64,000 nucleotides of DNA from Pseudodesulfovibrio sediminis (GTDB taxonomy: Bacteria; Desulfobacterota; Desulfovibrionia; Desulfovibrionales; Desulfovibrionaceae): the NCBI RefSeq assembly GCF_020886695.1, contig NZ_AP024485.1:629001-693000 (forward strand), in the 5' to 3' direction. Under the pieces are notes generated by a model, which was not told the DNA's origin, ran no database searches, and saw only the letters and a list, made by a program, of their open reading frames with translations. The translations under genes and the position numbers were made by a program. The number at the start of each line of letters is the position of its first letter. The stretch's first letter is position 1. Below, in pieces: positions 4,981 to 63,538 of the stretch.

Positions 4981-5015
4981 ACAAGGCCTCGGTTGTTCCG
5001 AGGCCTTGTATTTTA
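4981..5015 (+). terminator. Rho-independent terminator
   Basis: A perfect 12-bp GC-rich stem (4981-4992 with 4998-5009), five-base loop, then ATTTTATT. It ends the MBL-rhodanese transcript. The convergent gene on the other strand stops at 5013, inside the tail. Confidence 0.9.
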
Positions 5016-7199
5016 TTCAGGGAAATTGGCTGTTTTCACCACTGTCATATCCGGTTGAAACCATACGGCCGATGTCCCGGGAAACTCTTTATCCAACAGG
5101 AAAAGGCCGTCCTCTGCTCCGGCAATCATGAGAGTCGTCGCCAAAGCATCCGCTTCTTCAGCGGTCGCGGCTACCACGGTCACCCCAATCGCCTCTGTAG
5201 CAGGAGCCATGCTGATCGGATCAAGGACATGGTGACGCTTGATGTGCTGACCATTGCTCTCACTCATCACGAACTGTTGATAATCCCCTGATCCGCAAAC
5301 GCCCTTTTCACGAATCCGGATCAAGCCATACACCTGTCGGGTTCTGGGGTGCCTGATACCCACAGTCCACCATCTGTGGCCAAAACAATAAAAATCACCG
5401 CCAGCCTCAACAATACCTGCCTTGATGTGCAGCTCGCGCAACAAGGCGACTGCGGCGTCTATGACCGCGCCCTTGGCAATACCGCCTAGATCCAGTGCCA
5501 TACCCGTTTTTTTGAGCATGACCCGCCCTGTGGCATCATCAAGTTTGAGTAGCCTGTAGTTCACCAGATTTTGTTTGGCCTTGAGCACGCTTTCATCCAA
5601 CGCATAATACAGAGGTGAAGTCGTGGCAGCGCCGATTGTGGGATCAAAAACACCGCCTGTTTTTTTGCTTAAGGCCACGGTCCGTTGCAACAAATCAAAT
5701 GTCCGCCGTGAAGGATGCACCCAGGTACGTCCGGCCGCTCGATTGATACGGGCAACAGAACCATCGGTACTCCTGAAGTCATAGTCCCGCTGCAAAGCGC
5801 GTATGAATGCAATGGTCTTGTGCGCTGCGTCATCAGCAGCCTTCCTGCTCTCGGTCTGTAGCGTCAGTGTGACCACGGTTCCCATGGCAACATCGGTATA
5901 CGTATACACGCTTCGCTCATCGAAATGTCGGGATGCTCCTCCATACAGTATGGGGGTCACCCCGACTCCCACGATCAGCACACAACAGGATACAGCCAAC
6001 ACGAGGGTGTACCCTCGTCCCCAATGCAGATGACGATCAAGGATGGACCAAAGAAGCGGTATGCACAGGCACGCACCCAGAATGGCGACCACTTGCAGTA
6101 TTCGGCCGACCTCATAGGATGCCTGAACAACCAATCCCCCCAGAATGGGGCCAAGCAACAATCCTGCCCCCGCAGCAAGTTGCGTCATGCCAAAGACACG
6201 CCCCTGCCGATCATCAAGGGTCGACGCAACGGCCATGGATGAAGGCATGGAGATTGCTGTACCGAATCCCAACACACAGCCCCAGATCGCGTACTGCACC
6301 ACTGAAGCGGACATACCCAGACCATAGAGGCCGCAAGCACTCAGCAACATCCCCAAAACCACTTGGGAAGAACGTGGGACTTCACCGGAGAATCGGGAAA
6401 CCACCGGCAACGCAAGGCAAACGACCAGAGGGGGCAAGGCAAAAAGACTGCCGGTAACGAGGCCGCTTCGACCCAGAACCATAGTTAATAGTATTGGATA
6501 GAATGCCGCCATGGCTCCAACACCCGAGGCCCGCCCGGCTATGGCAAGATACAAGCTGACTCGATCTATTACGGCACCACGAGCTGCGCCCTCTTGTGTC
6601 TGTTTATCTGAATTGGTGTGAAAACCGTTCGGCAATGAAAACCCTGCAACGACTGCACTCAATCCCATACACAGTATGAGCCCAAACAGAACCGGTTCCA
6701 TCGACCGGTTGAAATACAACACACCGCCCAGAACAGGCCCCACGAAGAGCGCCACATTGAACACGAACGTGTGCAGGGCAAACCATTTTATCAGCTCTTT
6801 CTTTCGGCACAGACTGCCGAGAACGGCCATACCGATTGGCTTGATGCAACCAGCCGCAAGCCCAATGACAAACTGGACCATAAAAAGGACATGGACGGAC
6901 GGATCAAAATACGCGGTAAACGGTATCCCGGTTCCCACCGCGAGCATACACGTCAACGGGATGCGCGGACCGATTCTATCAGTCAGGATGCCCGCAACAG
7001 GTGCGGCCAGAACTCTGGCCAGAAAATATCCCGCAAAGCCCGTCCCGAGCCACATACCACTGACACGCTCATCAAGACTGAGAAGGGGCACGGCAAAAGA
7101 AAACAATCCAATCCCCACAGTGGACAGAAAGCCACACAGGAGAATGGCAAACGCCAATCTGTTTCGGTCTGCTGATGTGCGAAGGTTTGTATCTTTCAT
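5013..7199 (-). CDS. Fusion of an MFS transporter with FAD:protein FMN transferase (ApbE)
   Basis: A 728-residue fusion. Residues 1-390 are a 12-helix major facilitator transporter, with the typical DRIGPR loop at 74-79. An extra helix (about 397-420) then leads to a complete ApbE domain (430-728): MGTVVTLTL at 439-447, LDLGGIAKG at 569-577, EAGGD at 598-602, HHVLDP at 656-661 and the Mg-binding region DALATTL at 684-690. ApbE enzymes use FAD to attach FMN to threonine in proteins such as RnfD, RnfG and NqrB/C. An odd total of thirteen helices would place the enzyme outside, where RnfG needs it. The transporter's cargo is unknown; a flavin is an attractive guess. No good Shine-Dalgarno is visible before the ATG. 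It is the only apbE in the window, about 50 kb from the rnf operon. Confidence 0.9.
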   Translation of the reverse strand: MKDTNLRTSADRNRLAFAILLCGFLSTVGIGLFSFAVPLLSLDERVSGMWLGTGFAGYFLARVLAAPVAGILTDRIGPRIPLTCMLAVGTGIPFTAYFDPSVHVLFMVQFVIGLAAGCIKPIGMAVLGSLCRKKELIKWFALHTFVFNVALFVGPVLGGVLYFNRSMEPVLFGLILCMGLSAVVAGFSLPNGFHTNSDKQTQEGAARGAVIDRVSLYLAIAGRASGVGAMAAFYPILLTMVLGRSGLVTGSLFALPPLVVCLALPVVSRFSGEVPRSSQVVLGMLLSACGLYGLGMSASVVQYAIWGCVLGFGTAISMPSSMAVASTLDDRQGRVFGMTQLAAGAGLLLGPILGGLVVQASYEVGRILQVVAILGACLCIPLLWSILDRHLHWGRGYTLVLAVSCCVLIVGVGVTPILYGGASRHFDERSVYTYTDVAMGTVVTLTLQTESRKAADDAAHKTIAFIRALQRDYDFRSTDGSVARINRAAGRTWVHPSRRTFDLLQRTVALSKKTGGVFDPTIGAATTSPLYYALDESVLKAKQNLVNYRLLKLDDATGRVMLKKTGMALDLGGIAKGAVIDAAVALLRELHIKAGIVEAGGDFYCFGHRWWTVGIRHPRTRQVYGLIRIREKGVCGSGDYQQFVMSESNGQHIKRHHVLDPISMAPATEAIGVTVVAATAEEADALATTLMIAGAEDGLFLLDKEFPGTSAVWFQPDMTVVKTANFPE

Positions 7200-11055
<3,856 letters not shown>

Positions 11056-56128: not shown

Positions 56129-56875
56129 TTGCAAAAACGGTTTCTCTCCATCACCATTGTATCTGCGATTCTCTTTATCGTGGCCCTTGGCGGATATCTG
56201 ATCCCCATCCATGCTGACGAGCCGCCCATGCGCATTTTGCTCAAGAACAAAGGCGGTAAAGTTATCCTGAATCATCAGGAGCATATCAACATTGTGGATG
56301 GGAAATGCGCCTCCTGCCATCACACCACCGGTGACGCCCAGAATCCTCCTGCCTGCAGCGGATGTCATGCGGCCCAATTCAATGCGGCTTTCGTCCTTGA
56401 CCACCAGAAGACCATTGATAAAGCACACTGTGCTTCCTGCCACCACGCAAAAGCATCTATCGACAATTTTTCACACGATGACCATGCAGCCGAATATACA
56501 GACAACGAGTGCCAGACCTGCCACCATGATGAATCCATTGAGCCGGAACCGCAGGCGTGTGCCAATTGTCACTCAGACGGAAGCGATAACAAATTGAACC
56601 TGAGAGACGCGACGCACACACGCTGTGCAGATTCGGGGTGCCACGATGACTTCTACATAGGCGGCATCAACGGATGCGCCAACTGTCACACCCGTGAGAC
56701 TGCCTCGGCTCCTGACGCCAGGCAGCAGGCTTGCTCCACTTGCCACACTGTCCCGGTGGAGGAACTATTGCCCACAACCATGATCGCCTTCCACGGCAAA
56801 TGCATGGGATGTCACGAGCGTGAAGAAGTCGGACCGTTCGGAGAACAGGCCTGCTACCAATGTCACATGCAATAG
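56129..56875 (+). CDS. Periplasmic decaheme cytochrome c of the Rnf operon
   Basis: A 248-residue exported protein with an N-terminal signal or anchor helix (about 7-23) and ten heme-binding motifs: nine CXXCH (CASCH, CSGCH, CASCH, CQTCH, CANCH, CANCH, CSTCH, CMGCH, CYQCH) and one CX4CH (CADSGCH). Several are followed by a second histidine (CHH), as in class III cytochromes. It is directly upstream of rnfC. Desulfovibrio and Methanosarcina rnf operons are known to carry multiheme cytochromes, which are thought to link Rnf to the periplasmic cytochrome pool. The start is TTG with AGAGG eight bases upstream. Confidence 0.93.
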   Translation: MQKRFLSITIVSAILFIVALGGYLIPIHADEPPMRILLKNKGGKVILNHQEHINIVDGKCASCHHTTGDAQNPPACSGCHAAQFNAAFVLDHQKTIDKAHCASCHHAKASIDNFSHDDHAAEYTDNECQTCHHDESIEPEPQACANCHSDGSDNKLNLRDATHTRCADSGCHDDFYIGGINGCANCHTRETASAPDARQQACSTCHTVPVEELLPTTMIAFHGKCMGCHEREEVGPFGEQACYQCHMQ

Positions 56876-56888
56876 GAAACGACAGAAT

Positions 56889-58091
56889 ATGACCATATCC
56901 AATTTCAGTCTGCATACCGGCGAAACCGGCCCCCTGATTCAGGCGTCAACACCAGACAGACTTCGCGTTCCCATATACGGCATGACTCCAATCCTGGCGG
57001 AAGGCGATCAAGTGCTTGCCGGGACCAGGATCGCCCTGTCCAACAACGAAGACAGGGGTGACATGCACGCCCCTTTGGCTGGAACCATCAAGGCAGTCTA
57101 TCATGACTATATGCATATTGAGGTCACGGGCGAAGAACGGACAGAACCTCTCGTCCCCTGTTCCGAGTCCGGCAACGCCCTGCGAAAATGGCTCCGCGAC
57201 ATGGGCATCAACGTCGCACGCCTGAACCGGACACGAACACTCATCATCAATGGAGTCCCCCCTGAACCGGGAATATCCATATATGAACCACTTCTTCGCG
57301 ATTATCGAAAAGTTCTTGAGATCGGGCTGGATACGATTCAACGCATAGTCGAACCAATAAGAATCTTCATGGTGGTTGCCGAAGGCAATCAGACCAACGC
57401 CTTTGCCAACTGTACGGTCAAGCATGTTGCACCGATATATCCAAAGGGTTTGGACCCTCTGGTCATCAAAACCGTCACCGGCCAAGAAGTCCTTCCCGGC
57501 ATGCTGCCGAAAAATGGCACTATCCTGTCAGTAAAAGAGTTGTATTTCATTGGCCGTGTCATGGAATCAGGACGGCCTGTATCCGAAACGGTCATGACCC
57601 TTGGAACACAGAACCATCTGGTCAGGATCGGCACTCCAGTGGGATGGCTGACAAAGGAACTGGGAGTAAAGGTGCAGCCTGGTGACCGACTCGTTCTGGG
57701 AGGTGCCATGCGCGGGATGACTGCTGTCAATCTTGAACAAGGGGTGGACAAGCAAACCAACGGGCTTACGCTCTTCCGAAAGGAAGAAGGGCTCGAAACA
57801 ACAGACAATTTCTGTCTTGGATGCGGCGAATGTGAACGGCATTGTCCTTCACGCCTCATGCCGGGGATGATCAGCCGGTGTGCCGAATTCAAACAATTCA
57901 AACGCGCCGAGCGCTTCCATATTCATTCATGCATCGAGTGCGGCCTCTGTGGCTATTGGTGCACGGCCCAACGCCCGCTCCTGCAGTATATCCGACTGGC
58001 AAAATACGAGCTGGCCCTACTGGCAGGGGCAGAACTACCGCCGGATGTACCGATCAATGAGCGTGACAAAAAAGGAGATGCACCATGTTAA
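56889..58091 (+). CDS. rnfC: Rnf complex subunit RnfC, lacking the NADH/FMN loop
   Basis: A 400-residue subunit with the usual barrel-sandwich and SLBB parts and two [4Fe-4S] motifs near the C-terminus (CLGCGECERHCPS and CIECGLCGYWC). In most RnfC proteins the segment before LIIN reads GLGGAGFPTxxK and binds FMN and NADH, followed by a glutamate-rich AECEPY. Here that segment is missing (MGINVARLNRTRTLIING) and the next motif reads GVPPEPG. The protein is also short for the family. It should therefore still pass electrons but may not bind NADH. The open frame begins 69 bases upstream; the ATG at 56889 follows AGGAAAC. Overlaps rnfD by seven bases. Confidence 0.9.
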   Translation: MTISNFSLHTGETGPLIQASTPDRLRVPIYGMTPILAEGDQVLAGTRIALSNNEDRGDMHAPLAGTIKAVYHDYMHIEVTGEERTEPLVPCSESGNALRKWLRDMGINVARLNRTRTLIINGVPPEPGISIYEPLLRDYRKVLEIGLDTIQRIVEPIRIFMVVAEGNQTNAFANCTVKHVAPIYPKGLDPLVIKTVTGQEVLPGMLPKNGTILSVKELYFIGRVMESGRPVSETVMTLGTQNHLVRIGTPVGWLTKELGVKVQPGDRLVLGGAMRGMTAVNLEQGVDKQTNGLTLFRKEEGLETTDNFCLGCGECERHCPSRLMPGMISRCAEFKQFKRAERFHIHSCIECGLCGYWCTAQRPLLQYIRLAKYELALLAGAELPPDVPINERDKKGDAPC

Positions 58092-59071
58092 GGCCTCTCC
58101 AGCCCTTACTGACCGTTGCTGTCCCACCTCATGTTCACTGTGGCCGGTCAATCAAACGATACATGCTTGAGACACTCATAGCCTTGTTGCCCGCCGTGGT
58201 CATGGCCGTCATCGTCTTCAAACTGGACGGCTTGCGCGTCATGGCCCTGTCCTGTTCAATTGCCGTTGCCACTGAAGCCGCCTGCAACAGACTCATGAAC
58301 CGCGAACAAACCGTGGACGACTGGAGCGCACTCCTCACAGGATTGATCATTGCCTTCCTGCTCCCCGCATCCGCTCCATGGTGGCTGGTAACCATCGGCG
58401 CAGTCACCTCCATAAGTCTGGGCAAGATGATCTTCGGTGGTCTTGGCGGCAACCCGTTGTCCGCGCCACTGGTCGGCTGGGCAATCTGTCACATCTCCTG
58501 GCCCGCATTCATGGATACCAATGCTTCCATGATGATGTCCGGCCTTCCCGCGCCCTTACAACAAATCAAGTCCTTCGGTCTGGAATCCATTCAGCACCTT
58601 GACCCCATGTCCCTGCTCCTGGGCCAACAACTTGGCGGTCTGGGAGAGGTACACGTTCTCGCCCTGCTCGCCGGCGGCATATTCCTGCTCATACGGCACC
58701 ATATCCGTTGGGAAATCCCTTTTGGATTCATAGCAGGACTGCTGGGAACAGCCACGATCTACTGGCTTATTGACCCTACTGCATACGCTCAACCTCTTTT
58801 CCATCTCATGGCTGGAGGAGCCGTGTTCGGAGCCTTCTTCCTGGCGACGGATGCAGCCTCTTCACCGGTAGGCCTCGTGCCCTCCCTGCTTTTTGGGTTG
58901 ATAGGGGGCGCCATGGTCATCATCATCCGCGTATACGGCATCTACCCGGACGGTGTGCCCTTTGCCATTTTGCTAGCCAACCTGTTCACACCGCTCCTGG
59001 ACCGCATCCGGCCCAAACCATTCGGTGGTCCATACTCGTTTTTTGACGAGGACACGGAGGAAGCGGCATGA
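58085..59071 (+). CDS. rnfD: Rnf complex subunit RnfD
   Basis: A 328-residue integral membrane subunit with about nine or ten helices. The N-terminal PPHVHCGRSIKRYM and the loop GGAVFGAFFLATDAASSP are typical; the threonine in that loop is the likely site for covalent FMN attached by ApbE. AAAGGAG precedes the ATG. Overlaps rnfC and rnfG, supporting coupled translation. Confidence 0.94.
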   Translation: MLRPLQPLLTVAVPPHVHCGRSIKRYMLETLIALLPAVVMAVIVFKLDGLRVMALSCSIAVATEAACNRLMNREQTVDDWSALLTGLIIAFLLPASAPWWLVTIGAVTSISLGKMIFGGLGGNPLSAPLVGWAICHISWPAFMDTNASMMMSGLPAPLQQIKSFGLESIQHLDPMSLLLGQQLGGLGEVHVLALLAGGIFLLIRHHIRWEIPFGFIAGLLGTATIYWLIDPTAYAQPLFHLMAGGAVFGAFFLATDAASSPVGLVPSLLFGLIGGAMVIIIRVYGIYPDGVPFAILLANLFTPLLDRIRPKPFGGPYSFFDEDTEEAA

Positions 59072-59646
59072 GAGAAATGATCAAAATGATTCTGGTCCTG
59101 TCGCTCATCTGCGGCCTGTCCGGACTGACCCTGGCCACGGTCCGGGAAGCCACCAGCAAACGTATTGAAGAGCAGGTTCTTACCTACGTCCAAGGCCCGG
59201 CTCTTGATCAAATATTCAGCGACTACGAAAACAATCCCGTCAATGACCGCAAGGTCTTCGAGCTCCCCGAAGGGGCTGTCACTGTCTTTCCGTTCATGAA
59301 GGGAGGCAAACTCGAAGGCGTGGCCTTTGAAACCTTCGGCGTCGGCTATGGCGGCAAGGTCGGCATCATGGTCGGCTTCACGCTTGACGGGACCACCCTC
59401 CAGGGGATCGGCATCACCACCATGAAGGAAACCCCCGGCCTCGGAGCGCGCGCAACCGAGCCCGTCTTCCGAGACCAGTTCAAGGGGCTCGCCACCGACT
59501 CGATCGCTCTGGATAAACAGGGCGGCACCATCGCGGCCATATCCGGTGCGACCATTACCTCGACCGCAACGGTGACAGCCGTCAATGAAGCCATACAGAT
59601 TTTCGATAGAATCAAGGACAAACTCCCCAACGCATGGGGTCCCTAG
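59068..59646 (+). CDS. rnfG: Rnf complex subunit RnfG
   Basis: A 192-residue subunit with one N-terminal membrane helix and a periplasmic FMN-binding domain. The flavinylation motif is ISGATITSTA (residues about 152-161), where ApbE couples FMN to threonine. GGAGGAAG precedes the ATG, which overlaps rnfD by four bases. Confidence 0.94.
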   Translation: MREMIKMILVLSLICGLSGLTLATVREATSKRIEEQVLTYVQGPALDQIFSDYENNPVNDRKVFELPEGAVTVFPFMKGGKLEGVAFETFGVGYGGKVGIMVGFTLDGTTLQGIGITTMKETPGLGARATEPVFRDQFKGLATDSIALDKQGGTIAAISGATITSTATVTAVNEAIQIFDRIKDKLPNAWGP

Positions 59647-59655
59647 GATACCGTC

Positions 59656-60333
59656 ATGAGCACATTGTGGAAAGAACTCTCAAAAGGTCTCTGGCAGGAC
59701 CTGCCGCCGTTCAAACTGGTTCTCGGCCTGTGTCCGGTACTGGCTGTCACCAAAACAGCGTATAACGGTTTCGGCATGGGGTTGGCCGTCATTTTTGTCC
59801 TGGCCCTGTCCAACCTGTTGGTGTCCCTTCTGCGGAAGGTCATCCCGGCCAAGGTGCGCATCGCCTGCTTCATCGTGGTCGCTGCCTCTCTGGTGGTCTG
59901 CGTTGAACTACTCATGCAGGCCTATGCCTATCCGCTCTACCAGCAGCTCGGCATCTTCGTCCCGCTCATTGTGGTCAACTGCATCATCCTGGGCCGCGCC
60001 GAAGCCTTCGCCTCCAAGAACCCGATTCTTCTGGCCGTGGCCGATGGACTTGGCATGGGCATAGGCTACACTCTTTCCCTGACGTTTCTCGGCTCCATTC
60101 GTGAACTTTTCGGATACGGGACATGGTTCGGCATGCAGGTCATGGGCGACTGGTATGAGCCTTTCACCTTCATGGTGGAAGCACCCGGCGCTTTCGTCTG
60201 CCTGGGTGTCGTGTTGGCAGGCATGAATCTTCTGACCAACTGGCAGCGCAAATCAAAAGGACTGGAAGCGGTTGAAGGCCCTGTTCACGACTGCAAAACC
60301 TGCGGCATGTGCGCAACCAAACCGGGAGCATAA
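59656..60333 (+). CDS. rnfE: Rnf complex subunit RnfE
   Basis: A 225-residue membrane subunit of the NqrD/RnfE family, with six helices and the inverted-topology signature LGLCPVLAVTKTAYNGFGMG. The C-terminus ends CKTCGMC, an extra cysteine cluster. Together with RnfA it holds a membrane [2Fe-2S] cluster. Confidence 0.94.
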   Translation: MSTLWKELSKGLWQDLPPFKLVLGLCPVLAVTKTAYNGFGMGLAVIFVLALSNLLVSLLRKVIPAKVRIACFIVVAASLVVCVELLMQAYAYPLYQQLGIFVPLIVVNCIILGRAEAFASKNPILLAVADGLGMGIGYTLSLTFLGSIRELFGYGTWFGMQVMGDWYEPFTFMVEAPGAFVCLGVVLAGMNLLTNWQRKSKGLEAVEGPVHDCKTCGMCATKPGA

Positions 60334-60335
60334 TC

Positions 60336-60845
60336 ATGAAGCGCATTTTCGTCATAGCATTCTTCATTCTCTCACTCCTTCTGATCTGGAGTCCGGCCAG
60401 AGCCGAGCCGCCCACCAAAGAAAGTATGATGGACATGATTGAACTTTCCGGTGCTCTGGAAATGATGCAACCGATGCTTGAACAACTGAGAGCAAGAGCC
60501 CAGACACAAATTAAACATCAAAACCCCAACATGCCTGAAAAAGCGCTCACCATCATAAATGAGGAGATGCAGGCAGGCGTCAAGATCATGGTCATGGAAA
60601 TACTGGCCAAAATGGCGGACTACTATTCCAAGCACTTAACGCAAAATGAGGTCGATGAAATCATCACGATTTACAAGTCTCCGGCCTGGAAAAAATATGT
60701 CGCTGTCGGAAAACAATATTTGGCTGATGAATACGTTACACTCCTTCAGGTCGAGATACCCCGCATGACCAAGGAACTCCTCATGCGCGTATTTACCCGT
60801 CTGGAAAACAAAGGCCTGCTCAAGAACAACGAAAAGGGGGCATAA
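60336..60845 (+). CDS. DUF2059-type exported protein inside the rnf operon
   Basis: A 169-residue protein with a clear signal peptide (residues 1-23, ending SPARA before EPPTKE) and a helical body. The C-terminal part (LTQNEVDEIITIYKSPAWKKYVAVG) matches DUF2059, a periplasmic family of unknown function. It sits between rnfE and rnfA, with GGGAG before its ATG at 60336 and a one-base overlap with rnfA, so it should be made together with the complex. It is not a known Rnf subunit. Confidence 0.82.
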   Translation: MKRIFVIAFFILSLLLIWSPARAEPPTKESMMDMIELSGALEMMQPMLEQLRARAQTQIKHQNPNMPEKALTIINEEMQAGVKIMVMEILAKMADYYSKHLTQNEVDEIITIYKSPAWKKYVAVGKQYLADEYVTLLQVEIPRMTKELLMRVFTRLENKGLLKNNEKGA

Positions 60846-61420
60846 TGGACTACTTCGTACTCATCATCGCCGCCATCTTTGTCAACAACATCGTATTGGC
60901 GCAGTATCTTGGCAACTGCCCATTCATCGGCACATCCAAAGAGTCCAGTGTCGCCATAGGCATGGGCCTGGCCGTTGTCTTCGTGGCCACAATGGCGGCA
61001 TGCATCACCTGGTGTGTACAACAATTCATGCTGGCCCCCAATGATTTGGACTACCTTCAGACCATAGCCTTTATTCTGGTTATTGCCGCATTGGTCCAAT
61101 TCGTGGAAATGTTCCTGAAAAAAGTCATCCCTCCGCTCTACAAATCTCTGGGCATCTTTCTACCGTTGATCACCACGAACTGTGCGGTTCTCGGTATCGC
61201 CATCATCTGCCAGCGAGAAGAATTTTCCTTCATCGAAACACTCGTCTTTTCCATGGCATCCGGTTTCGGTTTCATGCTCGCCCTTGTGGTACTGGCAAGT
61301 ATACGAGAACGTCTAGATCTTGCACGAGTTCCCGTGTCCATGAAAGGCACCCCGCTCGGACTGATCATGGCCGGATTGATGTCCCTCGCATTCTTCGCAT
61401 TCAAAGGCATGGCCTCCTAG
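60845..61420 (+). CDS. rnfA: Rnf complex subunit RnfA
   Basis: A 191-residue membrane subunit of the NqrE/RnfA family with six helices. NNIVLAQYLGNCPFIGTSK at the N-terminus and LGIFLPLITTNCAVLG in the middle contain the cysteines that, with those of RnfE, bind the membrane iron-sulfur cluster. Follows the DUF2059 gene with a one-base overlap. Confidence 0.95.
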   Translation: MDYFVLIIAAIFVNNIVLAQYLGNCPFIGTSKESSVAIGMGLAVVFVATMAACITWCVQQFMLAPNDLDYLQTIAFILVIAALVQFVEMFLKKVIPPLYKSLGIFLPLITTNCAVLGIAIICQREEFSFIETLVFSMASGFGFMLALVVLASIRERLDLARVPVSMKGTPLGLIMAGLMSLAFFAFKGMAS

Positions 61421-61426
61421 GAGTAT

Positions 61427-63538
61427 ATGGATATGATCACAGCTTCCGTACTCGTCCTGTTCGGCATTGGCCTGACCGCAGCTGTTATCCTGGCTGTGGC
61501 TTCCAAGGTGCTCTATGTCTACGAAGATCCACGCATCGCCCAGGTGGAAAGCGTGCTCGCCGGAGCCAACTGCGGAGGCTGCGGCTTCCCCGGTTGCGCA
61601 GGAGCCGCCCAGGGCGTTGTCGATGGCAAGGCCGGAGCCACAGTCTGCGTTATCGGAGGGGATGAAGTCGCCAAGAATGTCGCTGCCATCATGGGCCTCG
61701 ATTTCTCTTCCGTGGAGAAAAAAATCGCCTTTGTAGACTGCACCGGTGGCACCCGCGCTGAAGAAATCTATGAATATCAAGGCGTCAAGGATTGCCGCGC
61801 CCAACACATGCTGTACAGCGGCTCCAAGATGTGCCCTGAGGGATGTCTCGGATACGGCACCTGCGTGACAGCCTGTCAGTTTGGCGCCATTGCCATGGGG
61901 CCAGACGGTTACCCCGTAGTCGACCCGGAACTCTGCACCGCATGCGGTGGATGTGAACAGGTCTGTCCACGCGGCGTCATCACCATCTGGGGCATGACCG
62001 CACGGATCAAACATCTCAACGAGAACACGGACTGCCTGGCCCCGTGTCGGCAGCGCTGCCCCGGACAGATCAATATTCCCCGCTATATTGAACAGGTTTC
62101 ACGCGGTGACTTCGCCGGTGCACTGGAAACCATTCGTGAACGCATTCCCATGCCCCTGTCCATCGGACGAGTCTGCCCTCACCCCTGTGAAGGCGTCTGC
62201 CGCCGCGGTCATGTCGACGAATCTGTCGGTATCAACATGATCAAACGGTTTGTAGCCGACTGGGAAATGAACTCCGGTCAACGTCTGCCCATCTCCTGCG
62301 CCCCGGAAAATGGCCGAAGAGTTGCCGTGGTCGGTGGTGGTCCGGCCGGACTTTCCTGCGCCTTCTTCCTGCGCAGACTGGGATACAGTCCGACCATCTT
62401 CGAGTCCATGCCCAAGCTCGGCGGCCAGCTCAGATACGGCATCCCTGAATACAGGTTGCCCAAGTCGGTACTCGACTGGGAGATCGAGGGCATCCTCGGA
62501 CTGGGGGTTGATGTCGTCACGGAACAACTTTTCGGCAAAGACTTCACACTCGACTCTCTGGCAGAAGACGGCTTCGAGGCAGTCTTCCTCGGCATCGGAG
62601 CATGGATGAACATGACCCTCAGGATCGAAGGCGAAGATTCCATCGGCGTGGAAACCGGCACGGAATTCCTGACAAAGGTCGGTCTCGGAGTCGATACCGG
62701 CATAGGCAAAAGGGTCGTGGTCATCGGTGGAGGCAACACGGCCATTGATACGGCCCGCTCCAGCGTCAGACTCGGCGCACACGTCACCATGATGTACCGG
62801 CGCACCAGAGACGAGATGCCGGCGCACATAGAGGAAATAGAAGGAGCGGAAGAGGAAAGTGTCAAGTACCTGTATCTCGCCGCCCCCAACCGTATCATCG
62901 CGGATGAGTCCGGCCATGTAACACACGTCGAATACATCCAGATGCAACTGGGCGAACCCGATGACTCCGGCCGTCGCCGCCCTGTTCCCATTGAAGGTTC
63001 GGAATCGCTCATAGAGTGCGATACGGTCTATACTTCCATAGGCCAAAAACCCGAACTCTCATGTCTATATGATGAAAACGGCGCATGTACACTGGAAGAG
63101 ACTCGATGGCGCACCCTGGGTGCCGACCCGGAGACCCTGCAAACAGCCATTCCCAATGTGTTCACAGGCGGCGACATGCACACCGGGCCGGCGCTGGTAA
63201 TCACTGCGCTGGGTGAAGGTCGAAAAGCAGCCAGATCAATAGATCAATATCTGACTGAAGGCGTGCCCCATGTCTCCTCAAACATACAGCGCGAACTGAT
63301 TCCGTACACCATGTTTACTGACGTCCCGGATGTCGGCTACAGGAAACGCTCCGCTCTACCACATCAAATAGAATGTGATGAACGGATGTGCACATTCAAG
63401 GAAATTGAAGGCCCGTTGAGCCTGGAAGAAGTCAAACATGAAACATGCAGATGCCTTCGTTGCGGCCTGACCTGCTATAATAGAGATATGGTGGAAGGGC
63501 AGGAATGTCAGGCAGAGGATTGTATCAAAAATCCCTAA
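61427..63538 (+). CDS. rnfB: RnfB fused to a GltD-like FAD/NAD(P) oxidoreductase
   Basis: A 703-residue fusion, about twice the size of a normal RnfB. Residues 1-28 are the membrane anchor; 49-74 bind a [4Fe-4S] cluster (CGGCGFPGC plus C74); 136-180 form two ferredoxin clusters (CPEGCLGYGTC, CTACGGCEQVC). Residues about 200-650 are a module like the small subunit of glutamate synthase or NfnB: cysteine-rich CLAPCRQRCPG and CPHPCEGVC, the FAD loop VVGGGPAGLS (301-310) and the NAD(P) loop VIGGGNTAIDTA (432-443) followed by YRRTRDEMPA. A C-terminal cysteine cluster (from about 674) ends the chain. It likely takes electrons between ferredoxin and NAD(P)H. GGAG precedes the ATG. Last gene of the operon. 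Confidence 0.93.
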   Translation: MDMITASVLVLFGIGLTAAVILAVASKVLYVYEDPRIAQVESVLAGANCGGCGFPGCAGAAQGVVDGKAGATVCVIGGDEVAKNVAAIMGLDFSSVEKKIAFVDCTGGTRAEEIYEYQGVKDCRAQHMLYSGSKMCPEGCLGYGTCVTACQFGAIAMGPDGYPVVDPELCTACGGCEQVCPRGVITIWGMTARIKHLNENTDCLAPCRQRCPGQINIPRYIEQVSRGDFAGALETIRERIPMPLSIGRVCPHPCEGVCRRGHVDESVGINMIKRFVADWEMNSGQRLPISCAPENGRRVAVVGGGPAGLSCAFFLRRLGYSPTIFESMPKLGGQLRYGIPEYRLPKSVLDWEIEGILGLGVDVVTEQLFGKDFTLDSLAEDGFEAVFLGIGAWMNMTLRIEGEDSIGVETGTEFLTKVGLGVDTGIGKRVVVIGGGNTAIDTARSSVRLGAHVTMMYRRTRDEMPAHIEEIEGAEEESVKYLYLAAPNRIIADESGHVTHVEYIQMQLGEPDDSGRRRPVPIEGSESLIECDTVYTSIGQKPELSCLYDENGACTLEETRWRTLGADPETLQTAIPNVFTGGDMHTGPALVITALGEGRKAARSIDQYLTEGVPHVSSNIQRELIPYTMFTDVPDVGYRKRSALPHQIECDERMCTFKEIEGPLSLEEVKHETCRCLRCGLTCYNRDMVEGQECQAEDCIKNP

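Follow-up and report, generated by a model that had tools for sequence, protein, structure and literature searches.

The 64,000-nucleotide stretch of the Pseudodesulfovibrio sediminis genome analysed here (contig NZ_AP024485.1, positions 629,001 to 693,000; called the window, with positions counted from its first letter) contains a gene coding for a single protein in which a carrier of the major facilitator superfamily (MFS) is joined to a flavinyltransferase domain of the ApbE family. ApbE acts outside the cytoplasmic membrane on flavin adenine dinucleotide (FAD) that is made inside. The protein is probably a dedicated FAD exporter, which delivers its cargo to its own ApbE flavinyltransferase. 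The interval reported in the initial annotation (5013-7199) is exact and comprises a single ATG-started open reading frame of 728 amino acids; the gene lies on the minus strand, which had been left unstated. The following features were assigned:

5013..7199, minus strand: MFS-ApbE fusion gene, 728 amino acids (open reading frame and Pfam), the sole ApbE found in the genome
6030..7199, minus strand: MFS carrier half, residues 1-390, 12 predicted helices, with Q109 in transmembrane helix 4 (TM4) and basic residues at 62, 120 and 223
5958..6017, minus strand: 13th transmembrane helix, residues 395-414, predicted to take the chain to the periplasm (model and 42/42 fusions)
5016..5909, minus strand: ApbE flavinyltransferase domain, residues 431-728, with conserved residues (Pfam, model and alignment)

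The annotated arrangement of carrier, extra helix and full ApbE domain in one chain is confirmed by Pfam matches and an AlphaFold2 model, which agree with each other. MFS_1 matches the MFS half in two stretches, the best of them covering residues 19-272 (E 1.4e-30), and ApbE (PF02424) matches residues 439-712 with an E of 2e-59 and 201.8 bits against a cut-off of 25.6, spanning profile positions 1-265 of 266. The model, which was built from an alignment of 8 rows (mean pLDDT 76.2, pTM 0.57), contains twelve MFS helices (9-389), helix 13 at 395-414 and an ApbE fold from residue 431; as the link 414-429 has a pLDDT below 50 and the pTM is low, it does not fix the mutual placing of the carrier and ApbE domains. 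By structure comparison, residues 12-393 are nearest to NorA, VMAT2, MCT8 and YajR (Z 35-36), and residues 427-728 to Ftp, FmnB and ApbE structures (Z 32-34). The C-terminal domain has its fold in common with the ApbE/FmnB/Ftp family (PF02424), with a Foldseek E of 3.1e-17 for FmnB (7esb) and a Z of 33.8 over 293 residues at 2.4 A for Ftp (4ig1).

The ApbE motifs had been described as intact, and the residues D519, D570, K576, D602, H656, H657, D684 and T688 are identical in 42/42 aligned fusions, with E598 found in 41/42. We take the Asp and Thr residues to form the metal site and the His near the end to be catalytic. Profile and residues support the assignment of this half to the ApbE flavinyltransferase family, with transfer of flavin mononucleotide (FMN) as its predicted activity. 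The carrier half has the 12-helix MFS fold together with the Asp of motif A; this residue, D74, is found in 41/42 fusions (one gap) and in 12/12 of the unfused relatives from nqr clusters described below.

The periplasmic position of the enzyme proposed in the initial annotation is favored over a cytoplasmic one, as a matter of prediction, by the 13 helices of the model and by the distribution of Lys and Arg. These residues are commoner in the predicted inner than in the outer loops of 42/42 fusions (means 15.9 vs. 5.1, with helix ends taken from the model), and the loop between helices 12 and 13 is basic as well, with a mean of 2.8 Lys and Arg in the aligned fusions. A 13th hydrophobic segment is present in 42/42 fusions, and the ApbE domain is therefore predicted to be located in the periplasm. 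The unfused carriers are mostly 399-411 amino acids long, and the one seen whole (L109) stops shortly past helix 12.

The genome consists of one contig of 3,764,150 bases and is rated 100% complete. The statement that the rnf operon of the window lacks a separate apbE gene holds in a stronger form, since only one ApbE match exists genome-wide, which is the fusion itself. None of the frames within 5 kb after rnfB is an apbE gene, and another exported apbE that might serve Rnf was not found in the genome. The single FMN_bind match of the genome is RnfG, whose gene belongs to the rnf operon (56-64 kb of the window). With a sole ApbE and a sole FMN_bind protein, the fusion must flavinylate RnfG if RnfG is flavinylated by an ApbE at all, a step which would follow by deduction. 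As Rnf is described as flavinylated by ApbE in other organisms (PMC12174285), the fusion protein is very probably the Rnf flavinyltransferase of this organism.

The distribution of the fusion was analyzed in 199 genomes of the order, 288 genomes of the family and 395 genomes drawn from the phylum. In the order set, ApbE was found in 123 genomes and FMN_bind in 121, with both in 118, ApbE alone in 5 and FMN_bind alone in 3. All 39 long ApbE frames, which come from 38 order genomes, encode MFS and ApbE in one frame (39/39), giving 40 fusions in 39 genomes together with the window. A sequencing or assembly accident is thus excluded, because these 39 further fusions are single open frames in 38 other genomes. 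Two of them, L037 and L046, lack their start, as they are cut by a contig end or by the edge of the retrieved stretch. Identity to the window protein ranges from 31 to 48% for the MFS halves and from 42 to 64% for the ApbE halves of the 39 fusions. No ApbE match besides the fusion was obtained in 20 of the 39 order genomes that carry it, and between one and three FMN_bind matches were present in each of these 20.

In the family set, 54 frames of fusion length were detected in 53/288 genomes, of which 42 were verified as MFS plus ApbE and 12 were assigned by frame length only. Within the genus of the window, 34/36 genomes contain such a frame. The phylum set, in which two to four candidates were scored per genome, yielded the full fusion in G000 and G535 only, and a Desulfobulbus-named metagenome-assembled genome (MAG) of the Desulfobulbaceae (L077), found separately, also carries it. 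Other long ApbE-bearing frames of the phylum (G356, G219, G434, G247) have no match to this MFS half and were rejected. Among plasmids, 374 records gave a tblastn match, none of them with 80% of the query covered at one place, and the best 15 matches concern the ApbE part only.

Some fusion loci have further genes in common. A gene for a TetR-type regulator is located directly upstream of the fusion on the same strand at L056:7483-8052 and at 15 other loci (cluster c5), mostly from the g13 genus; a flavin is a possible ligand of this regulator. One genome (G163) contains two fusions and an unfused carrier (L053, L054, L110), and its second fusion (L053), which is the more divergent one by sequence, is directly followed by a gene of the TetR cluster.

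Several fusions lie beside rnf or other FMN_bind genes. In G535 (L081), which belongs to another family, the genes for a cytochrome, rnfC, D, G, E, A and B and the MFS-ApbE fusion follow each other on one strand; this genome is a 76% complete MAG and the contig measures 10.6 kb, so that contamination is possible. In G671 (L122), a 99% complete genome of another genus in the family of the window, rnfCDGEAB is directly followed by the fusion after a gap of about 0.55 kb, with all these genes on one strand. In the rnf operon of Desulfovibrio alaskensis, the apbE-like gene rnfF is reported to sit after rnfB (PMC4841214), which is the same place as that of the fusion in G535 and G671. Unlike in D. 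alaskensis, the ApbE in the genome of the window is joined to a carrier, and its gene is found at a distance of about 50 kb from rnf. In G110 (L046), the rnf operon starts about 11 kb downstream of the fusion on the same strand. The distance between fusion and FMN_bind gene is 14-16 kb in several other genomes, about 45-54 kb in the own genome and some relatives, and the two genes are far apart in others, e.g., G115.

The Desulfobulbus-named MAG, which is incomplete at 1.3 Mb, yielded no ApbE other than the fusion, and the next gene on the same strand encodes the only FMN_bind protein found, with a match of 22.5 bits at a cut-off of 22. This neighbor (L077:10320-11552) is a protein of 410 amino acids with a C-terminal FMN_bind match and is possibly an unusual flavinylated protein.

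Split versions of the fusion, which the initial annotation had envisaged, were identified with a carrier profile made from 15 MFS halves without ApbE sequence. Run over the 199 order genomes, the profile finds 40 fused and 12 unfused genes (the latter with frames of 405-459 amino acids and 292-325 bits), and the next match has 127 bits. At 12/12 of the unfused loci, nqrA, B, C, D, E and F, apbE and a gene for a ferritin-like protein of 152-153 amino acids are clustered with the carrier, the nqr gene order being established by tblastn. The carrier is the first gene, with the whole cluster on the same strand, at 11/12 of these loci; in G094 it is encoded on the opposite strand, past apbE and the ferritin-like gene and separated from apbE by about 1 kb. 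Two held-out cases from the family search, G579 (another genus) and G690, both have the carrier first in nqrABCDEF-apbE on the same strand. This way, 14/14 unfused members of the clade belong to nqr clusters that contain a separate apbE, and the carrier heads 13/14 of them. The start of the apbE product resembles a lipoprotein signal at the five loci where it was seen (L101, L103, L106, L109, L112); the carrier is therefore not needed as an anchor there. Together with the 42 verified family fusions, this means that gene linkage connects all inspected members of the clade with ApbE.

The phylogeny of both halves was calculated with FastTree, which gave long-branch warnings in each case. The MFS tree contains 43 fused rows (the window, L033-L071, L077, L078 and L081; L072 and L073 are absent, and L074-L076 and L079 were left out as apparent copies of genomes already included). 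The outgroup is formed by 12 of the 13 loci L082-L092, L113 and L114, which are unfused MFS genes of about 125-160 bits from other families; L088 was omitted as a near-copy of L086. No ApbE was found in the stretches examined at these loci, and NorA, MdfA and Tet are not among the rows of the tree. The fused and the nqr carriers group together, apart from the 12 other MFS proteins, with a support of 100/100, and the order inside the group is not resolved, with values of 47/0 for the fused set and 100/100 for the nqr set. The MFS tree therefore does not answer whether the fused or the split form came first. In the ApbE tree, for which tblastn was applied to all 31 stand-alone loci (L028 and L030 being dropped as too short), the 43 fused domains form one group and the 12 nqr ApbEs another, and the 20 other stand-alone ApbEs fall with the latter. 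One carrier clade is thus tied to two lineages of ApbE by two kinds of link, fusion and operon, and this is the chief argument for a shared task.

The MFS half does not group with carriers of known cargo: no NCBIfam model matching the half from the window reaches its cut-off, and the tree separates the clade from the 12 other MFS proteins. Among named profiles, those of multidrug and tetracycline efflux match this half best, all far below cut-off, and its nearest solved relatives by sequence are the exporters NorA, VMAT, EmrB and MdfA. With DHA1-type exporters (NorA, MdfA, VMAT, Tet) it has in common the 12-helix fold, motif A and GPxxGG in TM5 and TM11, which we take to be motif C of antiporters; NorA (9b3k) superimposes on the carrier half with a Z of 36.1 over 360 residues at 3.5 A. 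Unlike members of this group, the half lacks the Arg of motif B, and it does not reach the cut-off of any model for a named exporter.

Residues were counted in 55 carriers (43 fused, 12 unfused) and in the 12 outgroup rows. At the TM4 position of motif B of drug antiporters, all 55 carriers have a Gln (Gln109), in contrast to the Arg of 12/12 outgroup rows and of MdfA (R112). Unlike DHA1-type exporters, the clade has extra basic residues in TM4 and TM7, namely a basic residue at position 120 in TM4 and R223 in TM7, each present in 55/55 carriers and in 2/12 outgroup rows. A basic residue at position 62 (TM2) occurs in 54/55 carriers, but also in 11/12 of the outgroup. D74, Q109, G113, P155, R223, P235, P319 and P351 show little or no variation. 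The basic residues in TM4 and TM7 would fit an anionic cargo such as FAD.

Some other possible marks of the clade were rejected. No acidic column inside the helices is common to fused and nqr members; the missing membrane carboxylate does not distinguish the clade, as the outgroup also lacks a conserved one, save for one position near the start of TM5. A phosphate-binding mode like that of GlpT was dismissed, with R223 about one helical turn before GlpT R269 in the joint alignment and a weak GlpT profile match to part of the N-half. The copper motifs MxxxM and HxxxM, named for RfnT in PMC6362234, are not conserved, the best shared columns having 9/55 and 1/55. Additionally, a distant unfused MFS gene in G394 (L083:5796-8277) matches the fusion profile with an E of 4e-46 and is located directly after ribBA on the same strand, near a gene for a secreted flavocytochrome-like protein. 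This pairing was set aside as evidence, since it is a single case from a genome without an FMN_bind match.

The reading as a candidate flavin exporter plus flavinyltransferase, which was put forward in the initial annotation, is supported, and none of the three outcomes listed there as refuting it was observed. In the mechanism we propose, the MFS half would take FAD made in the cytoplasm and release it on the periplasmic side. Helix 13 would keep the ApbE domain in the periplasm, where it would capture the FAD, attach FMN to a threonine in RnfG (and, in relatives, in other FMN_bind proteins as well) and release adenosine monophosphate (AMP). In related genomes, the separate carrier heading the nqr operon, at the end of which a separate apbE is encoded, would do the same job for NqrC and NqrB. 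That FAD is the cargo, that it moves outwards and is passed on to ApbE, and that flavinylation takes place are all inferred. A further-reaching form of this mechanism, in which the carrier exchanges outgoing FAD for the AMP just released by ApbE and so closes a cycle with direct cofactor hand-over, is possible, although we would not expect it to be the actual one. Such an exchange fits the absent Arg of motif B, the extra basic residues of TM4 and TM7 and the constant association with ApbE.

Several points weigh against a dedicated FAD exporter. The MFS fold is common to carriers of many cargoes, and the fusion lies outside the operon of its predicted substrate, about 50 kb from rnf, in its own genome. 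The 14 nqr loci are homologous to each other and represent few independent events. No member of this carrier clade occurs in 83/123 ApbE-bearing order genomes (at most nine candidates being scored per genome), and the carrier is accordingly not generally required. Nine MATE-domain matches lie in five frames of the genome; as the FAD and flavin exporters Bfe and YeeO are described as MATE proteins (PMC5655446), another route for FAD is possible. An FMN riboswitch was found neither in the window nor in the 9 nqr loci scanned; the sole RNA match, to a Vibrio antisense RNA model, falls within ribBA of L083. Finally, the MFS protein RfnT was at first proposed to transport riboflavin and was then reassigned to the copper carriers according to PMC6362234, so that gene context can mislead.

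The cargo is not named by the linkage to apbE, rnf and nqr. The carrier might serve flavinylation with another one, by returning AMP or by supplying a small molecule for Rnf or Nqr assembly, while FAD exits through a MATE protein. The MATE proteins of the genome are in line with this explanation, as are the invariant basic residues, which would suit AMP too. We regard it as rather doubtful, as ApbE would above all need FAD in the periplasm, where AMP could be degraded, and as the nearest relatives by sequence are exporters. The opposite direction, i.e., a flavin importer salvaging riboflavin or FMN whose link to ApbE reflects the flavin economy of the cell, is improbable. It is suggested by the proposal of RfnT as an MFS flavin importer, an assignment which is itself disputed (PMC6362234), and by the MFS gene directly downstream of ribBA in G394. 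The efflux-type relatives of the carrier speak against import, which would also leave the physical fusion to a periplasmic FAD-using enzyme unexplained.

That the MFS half transports nothing and merely anchors ApbE in the membrane near Rnf would match the attachment of most characterized ApbEs by a lipid anchor described in PMC12052999. Helix 13 would suffice for this purpose, the eight residues listed above would hardly have stayed invariant or nearly so, and unfused carriers are kept beside lipoprotein-like ApbEs, where an anchor is unnecessary; this explanation is consequently very improbable. Even less credit is given to an ordinary drug-efflux pump which was joined to ApbE by chance. The multidrug and tetracycline efflux profiles are the best named matches, even if far below cut-off, but the Arg of drug antiporters at motif B is absent in 55/55 carriers, a frame of fusion length is kept in 53/288 family genomes and all clade members inspected are tied to ApbE.

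Compared with known systems, the parts and the need are familiar, and the type of carrier and the physical arrangement are new. A kinetic study calls the source of FAD for ApbE "an open issue" and suggests that FAD transport could limit NQR assembly (PMC5655446). Bfe and YeeO of the MATE family export flavins across the Gram-negative inner membrane (PMC5655446), as proposed here for the MFS half. In Listeria, EetB-FmnA was described in 2023 as an ECF-type FAD exporter. This exporter is often encoded beside apbE and was proposed to be adapted to supplying ApbE, and flavin delivery to ApbE was put forward as a model for later studies (PMC9973259). The ECF exporter is contrasted there with the Gram-negative flavin exporter identified earlier, the single chains reported in the accessible text are EetA-EetB and not EetB-ApbE, and the ECF complex, found mostly in Firmicutes, is a transporter of another type than the MFS half (PMC9973259). 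Most characterized ApbEs are lipoproteins and some are cytosolic, and a natural fusion on record joins ApbE to its target fumarate reductase; in contrast to the protein of the window, none of those covered by the available part of this review (PMC12052999) is described as joined to a carrier. A literature search, which left subscription journals mostly outside its scope, gave no description of an ApbE joined to an MFS carrier. The term "MFS" is absent from the main text, as far as accessible, of a survey of flavinylation (PMC8238504), a preprint from 2024 (PMC10979944) and the ApbE review (PMC12052999), and the available portions of PMC11323493 and PMC5449479 contain no MFS exporter and no joining of ApbE to MFS, respectively.

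If FAD export by the fusion holds true, a Gram-negative carrier-ApbE chain with split versions in nqr clusters would represent a further, unrelated solution to FAD export, in which one gene would suffice to express and test both carrier and enzyme. Such a chain would also define an MFS clade with a flavin-nucleotide cargo predicted from two types of gene linkage, and would provide a marker for the annotation of "multidrug" MFS genes beside apbE. If FAD were exchanged for AMP, the protein would be a new exporter-enzyme machine, in which the by-product drives and paces the export of the cofactor.

The rnf operon and the gene adjacent to the fusion comprise the following features:

56129..56875, plus strand: multihaem cytochrome c opening the rnf operon (named from sequence and homologous operons)
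56820..58091, plus strand: RnfC (homologue in L122)
58085..59071, plus strand: RnfD (NQR2_RnfD_RnfE, E 1.4e-93); the SGAT motif was not seen in its sequence
59068..59646, plus strand: RnfG, predicted target of the ApbE domain and sole FMN_bind protein found genome-wide; carries an SGAT motif
59656..60333, plus strand: RnfE (homologue in L122)
60845..61420, plus strand: RnfA (homologue in L122)
61427..63538, plus strand: RnfB fused to a pyridine nucleotide oxidoreductase module (same fusion in L081 and L122)
7534..11055, plus strand: pyruvate:ferredoxin oxidoreductase, divergent from the fusion gene (named from sequence)

The oxidoreductase module of the RnfB fusion is presumably GltD/NfnB-like. 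This fusion, 703 amino acids long in the window, is also encoded at L081:3386-5458 and L122:6741-8798, in both cases in rnf operons directly followed by MFS-ApbE, and the RnfB frame of another genus (L116) has about 300 amino acids. Between rnfE and rnfA (60309-60845 of the window), a secreted-looking protein of 178 amino acids is encoded. Finally, the divergent pair of fusion and pyruvate:ferredoxin oxidoreductase genes (cluster c12; 7199-7534 of the window) was also found in L038, L045, L049, L052, L062, L072 and L073, and a link between ferredoxin supply and Rnf maturation is possible.

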